A DNA stretch of 5,309 nucleotides, taken from contig CALVUU010000097.1 in NCBI GenBank assembly GCA_944363655.1, positions 1 through 5,309 of the forward strand. Reading direction: 5' to 3'. Below the pieces are notes generated by a model. It was not told the DNA's origin. It was given only the letters and a program-made list of their open reading frames with translations, and did not search any database. Shown one piece after another: positions 3,281-3,954 of this stretch. Position 1 is the stretch's first letter; each line of letters begins with the position of its first letter. Position numbers and translations under genes: made by a program. This DNA comes from an uncultured Bacilli bacterium (GTDB taxonomy: Bacteria > Bacillota_I > Bacilli_A > RF39 > UBA660).

Positions 3281-3313
3281 GAAAAAGGGGACAGTCCCCA
3301 ATTTCTCACTTTG
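3273..3313. repeat. Degenerate second copy of the GGGGACAGTCCCC palindrome
   Basis: The core AGGGGACAGTCCCC and the right arm (AATTTCTCACTTTG) match the element at 631-671. The left arm has AAAAAGGGG in place of AAATTGGGG and the right arm has CAC in place of CAT, so the arms no longer pair perfectly. It overlaps the last codons and TGA (3278-3280) of the surface-protein gene, as the first copy does with the small gene. The two copies therefore bracket the surface-protein gene. They are in inverted or direct orientation indistinguishably, because the element is palindromic. Confidence 0.8.
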
Positions 3314-3337: not shown

Positions 3338-3366
3338 TTGACATAAGTATAAAAATATTGTATAAT
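3338..3366 (+). promoter_or_regulatory. Consensus SigA promoter of the structured RNA unit
   Basis: TTGACA (3338-3343) and TATAAT (3361-3366) are both perfect consensus hexamers separated by the optimal 17 bp. Transcription should start near 3373. It is the best promoter in the window and drives a unit with no ordinary-sized gene, as expected for an abundant small RNA. No CtsR box lies near it. Confidence 0.85.
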
Positions 3367-3413
3367 ATTTTCAGTGCTTGAATAACAAGCAAAAAATAAA
3401 AAAGGAGGAATTA

Positions 3414-3548
3414 GTGTATGCATCTGAAGAAGATGCGGTATCCGACTGGCTATATCTAGTACGAAAATTACTAGACCAAACAACGCGAGGTAAAAATGAT
3501 GTATACAACAGGGTTTATCTAGCACGACCATTTACCCAAAAAGTGTAA
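3414..3548 (+). CDS. Alternative 44-codon ORF overlapping micro-ORFs 1 and 2
   Basis: A GTG at 3414 lies 5 nt after GGAGG (3404-3408) and opens 44 codons to TAA at 3546-3548, starting MYASEEDAVSDWLYLVRKLL. Two copies of the TATCTAG motif are in this frame, as YLVRK and YLARP. Against it, three of its four arginines are CGA and none is AGA. It also uses GCG, ACG and TCC, unlike the nearby genes. The third motif copy is out of this frame and follows a TAG directly. It is probably fortuitous within a structured RNA, but the start context is good, so it is recorded as an alternative. Confidence 0.22.
   Translation: MYASEEDAVSDWLYLVRKLLDQTTRGKNDVYNRVYLARPFTQKV
3418..3459 (+). CDS. Micro-ORF 1 of three, 13 codons ending TGYI
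   Basis: The SD AAGGAGG (GGAGG at 3404-3408) lies 9 nt before the ATG, and the frame reads MHLKKMRYPTGYI then TAG. The C-terminal PTGYI parallels TTGFI and TSGFI of the other two micro-ORFs. Codons are atypical for the neighbourhood (CTG, CGG, CCG, ATC), which weakens a purely protein-coding reading. The first codons lie in the GCATCT/AGATGC hairpin. A competing GTG at 3414 opens a different frame. Confidence 0.35.
   Translation: MHLKKMRYPTGYI
3499..3522 (+). CDS. Micro-ORF 2 of three, 7 codons ending TGFI
   Basis: GAGGT (3487-3491) lies 7 nt before the ATG at 3499 (4 nt before an adjacent ATG at 3496). The frame reads MYTTGFI then TAG. Its SD overlaps GGTAAA (3489-3494), which can pair with TTTACC (3531-3536), so initiation could be occluded by structure. 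Confidence 0.33.
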   Translation: MYTTGFI

Positions 3549-3566
3549 GGCATCGGAGGAAAAACT

Positions 3567-3599
3567 ATGAACAGCCTGTACACTAGTGGCTTTATCTAG
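3567..3599 (+). CDS. Micro-ORF 3 of three, 10 codons ending SGFI
   Basis: GGAGG (3555-3559) lies 7 nt before the ATG at 3567, and the frame reads MNSLYTSGFI then TAG. The SD and start codon both fall in the 22-nt loop (3552-3573) closed by a 10-bp helix (3542-3551 with 3574-3584, one bulged G). This arrangement would present the start site to a ribosome. The end of the peptide matches those of micro-ORFs 1 and 2. Confidence 0.35.
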   Translation: MNSLYTSGFI

Positions 3600-3685
3600 C
3601 TACTAAAAATACGTTACCAGTCTGGTAACAAAAAACTAATTTCTGCCCCTGAAAACCGGAAGTCTCGGCTAAATTGGGGTCACCT

Positions 3686-3728
3686 GCGCCAGAGCATGTT
3701 TGCTCTGGCGCTTTCTACGTATTTTTTT
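3686..3728 (+). terminator. Intrinsic terminator of the structured RNA unit
   Basis: GCGCCAGAGCA (3686-3696) and TGCTCTGGCGC (3701-3711) form a perfect 11-bp GC-rich stem with a TGTT loop. TTTCTACGTA and seven T (3722-3728) follow. The T-tract is interrupted near the stem, but the hairpin is the strongest in the window. It insulates the unit from the ctsR promoter about 110 bp downstream. Confidence 0.85.
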
Positions 3729-3840
3729 ATATCCAATAAATTGAAACAAAAATTATTATAAAAATATATAGCATACGAAAGTATGTTAAATTACAATTAT
3801 AAACCTTAAGTAAATTCTATGACTAAATATTATAAAACTA

Positions 3841-3868
3841 TTGACTTTATGAAAAAAAGGTGTATAAT
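3841..3868 (+). promoter_or_regulatory. SigA promoter of the ctsR operon
   Basis: TTGACT (3841-3846) and TATAAT (3863-3868) are 16 bp apart, matching the consensus at 5/6 and 6/6 positions. Transcription should start near 3875, giving a leader of about 80 nt before ctsR. The start point falls at the edge of the CtsR operator. The region between the upstream terminator and this promoter is very AT-rich and holds only a small GAAA-loop hairpin (3771-3786). Confidence 0.85.
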
Positions 3869-3877
3869 ATTATTGTA

Positions 3878-3894
3878 AGTCAAAGAAAGTCAAA
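3878..3894 (+). promoter_or_regulatory. CtsR operator (heptad direct repeat)
   Basis: AGTCAAA (3878-3884), the spacer GAA and AGTCAAA (3888-3894) fit the CtsR consensus RGTCAAA-NNN-RGTCAAA exactly. It begins about three bases after the predicted transcription start, where a bound repressor would block initiation or escape. A partial third half-site, AGTCAGA (3894-3900), overlaps its end. It predicts autorepression of ctsR-mcsA-mcsB and release during heat or protein stress. Confidence 0.93.
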
Positions 3895-3954
3895 GTCAGA
3901 AATAAATCGAAATTATATAAAACTGATATACTAAGAAACAAAGGATGTGATTAA

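Follow-up and report, generated by a model that had tools for sequence, protein, structure and literature searches.

What is encoded by three very short open reading frames (ORFs) that end in almost the same residues is the question raised by a 5,309-nucleotide (nt) stretch of DNA from an uncultured Bacilli bacterium (GenBank assembly GCA_944363655.1, contig CALVUU010000097.1), here called the window. The original prediction described three tandem micro-ORFs of 13, 7 and 10 codons, each with a Shine-Dalgarno (SD) site and an ATG, within one transcription unit. Direct reading of the window confirmed all three on the forward strand, each closed by TAG. Micro-ORF 1 (3418–3459) begins at ATG 3418 behind AGGAGG (3403–3408), encodes MHLKKMRYPTGYI in 13 codons, and ends at TAG 3457–3459; it carries an in-frame CGG (3436–3438) at codon -7, counted back from the stop. 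Micro-ORF 2 (3496–3522, TAG 3520–3522) has no CGG and reads MMYTTGFI or MYTTGFI, and hence 8 or 7 codons, depending on whether the start at 3496 or 3499 is chosen. Micro-ORF 3 (3567–3599, TAG 3597–3599) encodes MNSLYTSGFI in 10 codons behind GGAGG (3555–3559), likewise without CGG and with a rare CTG at codon -7. The predicted lengths were therefore borne out, as was the presence of three SD sites, albeit that of micro-ORF 2 is a weak match of only 4 nt (GAGG, 3487–3490). SD-preceded ORFs ending in [ST]G[FY]I numbered three in the window, versus none in any of 4,000 dinucleotide shuffles of 3373–3735.

A search with the CtsR protein gave 80 loci, almost all from assemblies that carry the title uncultured Clostridia or Clostridium. 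Among these, nhmmer with the whole unit matched only L004 and L015, because the RNA between the ORFs diverges fast, whereas motif models succeeded, and a codon-blind peptide scan added L010 and L060. Including wider searches with sequence-only unit models, the same kind of unit was found in 29 further genomes (30 loci, with two arrays in G287) from one lineage of uncultured gut Clostridia, giving 31 loci with the window. In 21 of the 31, the array opens with a first micro-ORF of a different type, and 12 of these 21 have R-[GD]-(x)-P near the N-terminus (MIRGPTNK, MTRGPNNSK, MVRGPGSNK, MTTRDRPTSNK, MRDGPSTSKK). One to four micro-ORFs follow, ending mostly in [YF]-[TP]-[ST]-G-F-[TVI]-stop, and a few ORFs combine both ends (MKIRGPFFGYFRYPTGFT, MTRPSNRLLSLSRYRYFAGFT). 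Many of the motif ORFs have 7–10 codons and others up to 26. Near-identical units recur in L319 with a 97-base period (2.5 copies), so arrays can grow by tandem duplication. Of 51 distinct units, 45 have Tyr or Phe at codon -6, 41 have Thr or Pro at -5, 43 have Ser or Thr at -4, and 48 have Thr, Val, Ile or Leu at -1. Conservation at -2 to -7 is partly by construction, as the filter demanded Gly at -3 and Phe or Tyr at -2 and admitted only loose sets of residues at -4 to -7; the SD, third codon positions and stop identity were no part of it. Two loci show additional parts. In L114, an extra micro-ORF (1459–1476, MRTGI-TAG) with CGG as its second codon and a shortened motif stands directly before two full units. 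In L145 and L148, the last micro-ORF is followed 3' by a long G+C-rich stretch, which in L148 contains an internal near-repeat and which their relative L140 lacks; the L145/L148 transcript may carry a further structured domain.

Conservation of these frames as coding sequence is supported by how their codons vary. In the ten units known before any model was built, frame, SD and start were constant while the DNA varied, with Thr written as ACA, ACT, ACG or ACC, Ser as AGT or AGC, Gly with all four codons, and the stop as TAG or TAA. The TATCTAG string itself shifts among relatives (GTCTAG, ACCTAA, GTTTAA) that keep SD, start and frame, the opposite of the pattern (TATCTAG kept, but SD, ATG or frame lost) that the original prediction had named as refuting it. 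Over the 51 distinct units, the synonymous fraction was 0.396, versus 0.337 expected (sd 0.008; 0 of 2,000 shuffles) when, within each codon column, the first, second and third nucleotides were shuffled independently of one another. The strongest column was -4, where serine switches between AGY and TCN codons; the residue filter could slightly favour a synonymous result at -4 and -5. Column -7 behaved in the opposite way (0.173 versus 0.297 expected) because CGG dominates it. When only the 32 units with CGG at -7 were considered, codons -6 to -1 still gave 0.412 versus 0.340 (0 of 5,000 shuffles), as did the 23 of these that are less than 80% mutually identical (0 of 5,000), with column -5 alone being weak (185 of 5,000). 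Since codons behind the CGG are constrained, they would have been read at some time, and since Ser and Thr codons exchange while residues stay constant, the peptides appear to be made and to matter, as had been predicted from the varying third positions of the window's three copies.

The stop and one arginine codon are constrained in a way that a peptide would not need. TAG closes 45 of the 51 units, versus 98 of 470 long ORFs from the 80 loci (p = 7e-22). The 57 motif ORFs end in TAG (49), TAA (6) or TGA (2), and the TAG share far exceeds that of the first micro-ORFs (4 of 21, p = 6e-8), a set of 21 that includes L010, L138 and L114 (TAG) and L326 (TGA). The motif-ORF and array counts exclude L119, which shares a genome with L136, and the degraded L010, and take the third ORF of L127 with its longer, upstream start; arrays number 29 and not 30 because L145 and L148 share one identical motif ORF. 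In the 80 ctsR loci, the long ORFs contain 18 CGG among 171,097 codons, several of them in apparent frameshift tails or antisense ORFs. Of the 57 motif ORFs, by contrast, 43 carry CGG in frame, as do 28 of 29 arrays, mostly at codon -7 (33 times), -8 (5) or -9 (5); 42 of the 57 ORFs have CGG at one of these positions, which means that its distance from the stop varies but its frame does not. Within the 27-nt units, 36 CGG triplets are in frame, versus 5 and 5 in the other two frames, and over whole arrays the counts are 51 versus 11 and 12. CGG accounts for 33 of 37 Arg codons at -7 and for 18 of 60 elsewhere in the same micro-ORFs, while Arg occupies -7 in only 4 of the 19 cases where CGG does not. 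Arg is seldom kept without CGG, and therefore the codon, not the residue, seems to be conserved. Among 17 arrays with at least two motif ORFs, the last is CGG-free in 9 of 17, versus 4 of 28 for the others (p = 0.008). In the ten units known before any model was built, TAG was the stop in 7 and CGG stood at -7 in 6. Enrichment of TAG, and of an in-frame CGG just ahead of or within the conserved block, beyond the needs of the peptide is supported by these comparisons.

The arginine codon is unusual for a further reason. In the incomplete assemblies G111, G156 and G375, there was no tRNA-Arg(CCG) among the 31, 36 and 30 tRNAs recognised, and Arg anticodons were ACG, TCT and CCT only; none was present either among the 20 (G002) and 13 (G466) tRNAs recognised in two less complete assemblies. 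A TadA match above the cut-off was present in four of four genomes tested (the G287 copy has one internal stop), so ACG is expected to become ICG, leaving CGG to tRNA(CCG) alone. According to a published genetic-code screen, CGG is readable by tRNA(CCG) alone where ICG is used, and relatives of Clostridioides difficile have almost no CGG and no tRNA able to read it, a state likened there to unassigned CGG in Mycoplasma capricolum (PMC8629427). In recoded E. coli, unassigned codons are resolved via near-cognate reading, frameshifting and rescue (PMC6207430). One tRNA-like gene, in L194 (G111:C3:19685-19800), was called Asp(GTC), and its anticodon loop apparently has no usual U33.

The unit also has the signals of a gene of its own. 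In the window, a sigma-A promoter (3338–3366, TTGACA and TATAAT 17 nt apart) matches the consensus at 12 of 12 positions, and a probable terminator (3686–3728) consists of an 11-bp G+C-rich hairpin (3686–3711, -23.5 kcal/mol, z -6.8) and an interrupted U-run. The proposed promoter-terminator unit thus held for its promoter; its terminator, which a strict terminator scan left unscored, is likely present but not clean. Family-wide, a perfect consensus promoter lies within the 160 bases upstream of the first listed ORF in 15 of 29 units, versus 2.6% of random same-strand pieces, and a promoter with at least 10 of 12 matches in 24 of 29, versus 13.8% of random same-strand 160-nt pieces (L119 being left out of the 29); a strict terminator was scored in 15 of 29 units, versus 10% at random.

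The possibility that the unit is a leader-peptide attenuator of a downstream gene such as ctsR had some appeal, as short ORFs with an SD are present and micro-ORFs followed by a hairpin stand upstream of ctsR in the window, L004, L015 and L010. However, ctsR has its own promoter (3841–3868, 11 of 12 consensus matches), and among 81 sources examined, arrays occur only in the window and in four loci, and that of L060 is not upstream of ctsR. The downstream gene also varies. In the 17 loci where it has at least 149 residues (a cut chosen after seeing the table; L119, a repeat of L136, is omitted), it lies on the same strand in nine, four of these being ctsR, and on the opposite strand in eight, which already contradicts attenuation and shows that the unit is not a leader for ctsR. 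Domain scans of ten neighbours (eight convergent, two co-directional) identified proteins mostly unrelated to one another: a peptidase, a cation transporter (twice), a PRK-type kinase, a branching enzyme, a tRNA synthetase anticodon domain, a Cna-B surface protein, PheT, a Mur ligase and a MinD-like ATPase. Attenuation is accordingly the least probable explanation we considered. The link to ctsR drawn in the original prediction looks incidental, most other array loci adjoining unrelated genes, and the arrangement of genes and promoters leaves no room for control of a neighbour in cis as the general function of what appears to be a stand-alone unit.

The reading we tentatively prefer, and which we consider possible without calling it probable, is that of a free-standing gene whose translated micro-ORFs engage ribosomes, with CGG as a decoding gate and the nascent peptide acting at termination dependent on release factor RF1. 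The promoter should be strong, and the gene would do its work through ribosomes translating the tandem micro-ORFs. The CGG codon, which none of the tRNAs found should read, would hold or meter ribosomes before UAG. When a ribosome reaches UAG, the last six or seven residues would occupy the tunnel from the peptidyl transferase centre as far as the constriction, and the conserved C-terminal residues may act on RF1-dependent termination by slowing or arresting release. The effect would fall on ribosomes or RF1 (holding, tuning, or conditional shut-off), the target being assigned there because no neighbour is regulated in cis. The combination of C-terminal constraint, preferred stop and CGG points to action at the level of the ribosome, since only the C-terminal constraint would matter to a free peptide. 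Several observations weigh against this reading. CGG is more frequent in long ORFs of loci L081–L150 (13 of 41,797 codons) than in those of the ctsR loci, occurs at 71 of 5,723 positions outside the micro-ORFs in arrays that are CGG-rich and G+C-rich generally, and is missing from 14 of the 57 motif ORFs. CGG and TAG frequencies are biased upwards because the nucleotide models were trained on CGG- and TAG-rich units, and the missing tRNA is not proof of its absence because all assemblies checked are incomplete. L010 has the motif inside a longer frame (MKYYPTGFIRPKKFLN), though this locus looks degraded, and we infer the action at termination from the C-terminal anchoring and TAG.

Of the alternatives, the strongest, though still unlikely, is a gene for trans-acting peptides, released and bound by a receptor through their C-termini, with tandem copies raising the dose. 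The conserved C-terminus and variable N-terminus, the common lengths of 7–10 residues, and the strong promoters and SDs would all suit such peptides, but the peptides differ within one array and the identity of the stop and of the Arg codon should be irrelevant to them. No receptor gene adjoins the loci examined, a RopB/Rgg-type receptor domain being absent from the ten scanned neighbours and the window genes, with other flanking ORFs judged by eye and receptors elsewhere in the genomes not searched for. A further reading is a codon-locked device, in which bacteria that lost the tRNA for CGG would retain this codon mainly in the stand-alone array as a decoding sensor; translation would complete only when a foreign tRNA or misreading reads CGG, and the peptides would then act on UAG termination. 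We regard this as doubtful. Slightly less credible is its use as an alarm or shut-off through peptide production or termination arrest, locked by CGG until a foreign tRNA-Arg(CCG), which some phages or plasmids may carry, or strong misreading lets ribosomes pass. A codon nearly absent from genes, with no tRNA found, yet in frame in 28 of 29 arrays and followed by constrained codons, would fit such a lock, as would the patchy occurrence of arrays, which in the two genera sampled are carried by 5 of 30 and 8 of 27 genomes, mostly at one locus each. However, the last motif ORF is often CGG-free (9 of 17) and there is no sign of defence, phages of these hosts not having been searched for a trigger tRNA.

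The remaining two alternatives are more remote. Macrolide- and ketolide-resistance minigenes are highly expressed, very short ORFs whose translation affects the ribosome in cis, and translation of the short peptides here could likewise remove a tunnel-binding antibiotic. The strong promoter, strong SD and very short ORFs that such minigenes need are present, and some peptides end in F-V. The minigenes differ from the arrays in being artificial, about 5 codons long, single-copy and of other sequence; the arrays have ORFs of up to 26 codons and a conserved Gly-Phe that has no known parallel among the minigenes, and a slow CGG would hamper constant clearing. We therefore consider drug clearing improbable. 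A purely structural non-coding RNA with incidental frames, for which the atypical codons had seemed to leave room, is very improbable. It is true that the window transcript folds better than shuffles (z -5.65), that 28 of 30 units are G+C-richer than their own locus, and that CGG is common between ORFs too. Nevertheless, serine codons exchange between AGY and TCN and CGG is frame-specific, and the in-frame CGG and TAG look selected as codons rather than as RNA. Neither CGG nor the stop codon shows a pairing common to the family: the mean unpaired probability of CGG was 0.245 (n = 32), versus 0.257 for 97 other CGG triplets in the same pieces, and the comparison for a hairpin at the stop gave 0.44, versus 0.48 with shuffled downstream bases (p = 0.35).

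Among known systems, leaderless communication peptides of the SIP/RopB class are the nearest in size. These are SD-preceded ORFs of about 8–10 codons in Firmicutes without a secretion signal, which adjoin a RopB-like receptor gene and whose examples are hydrophobic (PMC10518010); the arrays have no adjacent receptor, occur as tandem copies, and are constrained at the stop and CGG. The termination-arrest leader peptides (TnaC and SpeFL) resemble the arrays in being encoded by a short ORF whose final residues are fixed in position relative to the stop codon. Unlike the present units, which have no such target generally and up to four copies per RNA, they control a downstream gene in cis. Apidaecin-like mini-genes also encode a C-terminally constrained peptide behind an SD and ATG, and apidaecin-like peptides can stop ribosomes at the end of an ORF and thereby trap release factors; apidaecin, however, comes from an insect, has 18 residues and is not evidently similar in sequence, and the mini-genes are laboratory constructs (PMC11347161). 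By analogy with these mini-genes, endogenous short peptides that arrest ribosomes at stop codons would be possible in principle. Genomes of low-GC bacteria with unassigned CGG are similar in that the codon is almost unused and no tRNA can read it, but the section of the paper on unassigned CGG describes no conserved micro-ORF use of the unreadable codon (PMC8629427). In the literature searched, which left most subscription journals and supplementary tables outside its scope, no paper contained any of six exact heptad forms and no match was found for tandem micro-ORFs of this kind.

If CGG is indeed unreadable in these bacteria, the arrays would be an example from nature of translated frames that deliberately retain a codon the cell cannot read. 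Codon loss would then turn from a by-product of low G+C content into a regulatory or defensive resource, and the cell's handling of an unassigned codon would become directly testable. Even with a readable CGG, tandem micro-ORFs that stand alone and are constrained in their stop and sense codons would be a form of gene that is easily overlooked, because gene finders usually set a minimum length above 7–13 codons.

The distribution of arrays was assessed in overlapping samples of 195, 390 and 385 genomes from the family or order to which G001, the source of L004, belongs. The unit models gave matches in 11, 26 and 37 of these genomes, and reading of the loci left motif-bearing SD micro-ORFs in 6, 19 and 20. 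The other matched genomes (5 of 11, 7 of 26, and 17 of 37, of which 10 were looked at) were not validated; these include the borderline MRFTSGF-TGA of G217, whose SD is weak and distant. Searches within two genera with looser filters gave 9 and 11 matched genomes, of which 4 and 3 were not validated, so that arrays are carried by 5 of 30 and 8 of 27 genomes after reading. These carrier counts are lower bounds because the filters lose weak matches. At class level (341 genomes) and phylum level (398 genomes), with E ≤0.02 and 15–17 candidates scored per genome, there was nothing valid beyond G001, the seven class-level and seven phylum-level matches outside it (G633 in both) being chance matches without an SD micro-ORF of this kind. 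A lone TGA-ending frame in L030 (MLFWKNFTSGYV) was dropped. One strict pattern had no match in viral contigs, and blastn of the window unit had none in phage and plasmid records; diverged arrays would escape both searches.

Several further features surround the micro-ORFs in the window. A 5' hairpin (3375–3391, forward strand, as are the following two; -6.3 kcal/mol, z -3.2) stands right after the expected transcript start, and its arms GCTTG and CAAGC are retained in L004 and L015. Another (3455–3475, -5.6 kcal/mol, z -2.3) covers the stop codon of micro-ORF 1 and is not family-wide, and a third, GTTACCA-GTC-TGGTAAC, lies at 3613–3629 (-7.6 kcal/mol, z -3.3). A search of the window against Rfam at E ≤10 gave 10 matches, all under gathering scores and none overlapping the micro-ORFs. 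The window encodes an internalin-like surface protein upstream of the unit and ctsR, mcsA and the start of mcsB downstream. Behind the ctsR promoter, the sequence GTCAAAGAAAGTCAAAGTCA (3879–3899), present in nearly all ctsR loci inspected, is a likely CtsR operator. Two copies of a long palindrome around GGGGACAGTCCCC (634–668 and 3283–3309) flank the surface-protein gene, and similar GGGACAG pieces adjoin ctsR in L001, L002, L005 and L008. A small protein encoded at 486–638 (MAKEDKNNDIDKHEETEDVTKYGEFVSSYFAWLTPEKQKKRAKEIDNMTK) has a core around TKYGEF..SYFAWL that recurs upstream of ctsR in many loci. Upstream of ctsR in L010 (4650–4795) and L016, apparently the same inverted-repeat element of about 150 bases occurs in opposite orientations with AGAAGAAGTATATATT-like ends, as judged by eye, and is perhaps a miniature inverted-repeat transposable element or a structured RNA.
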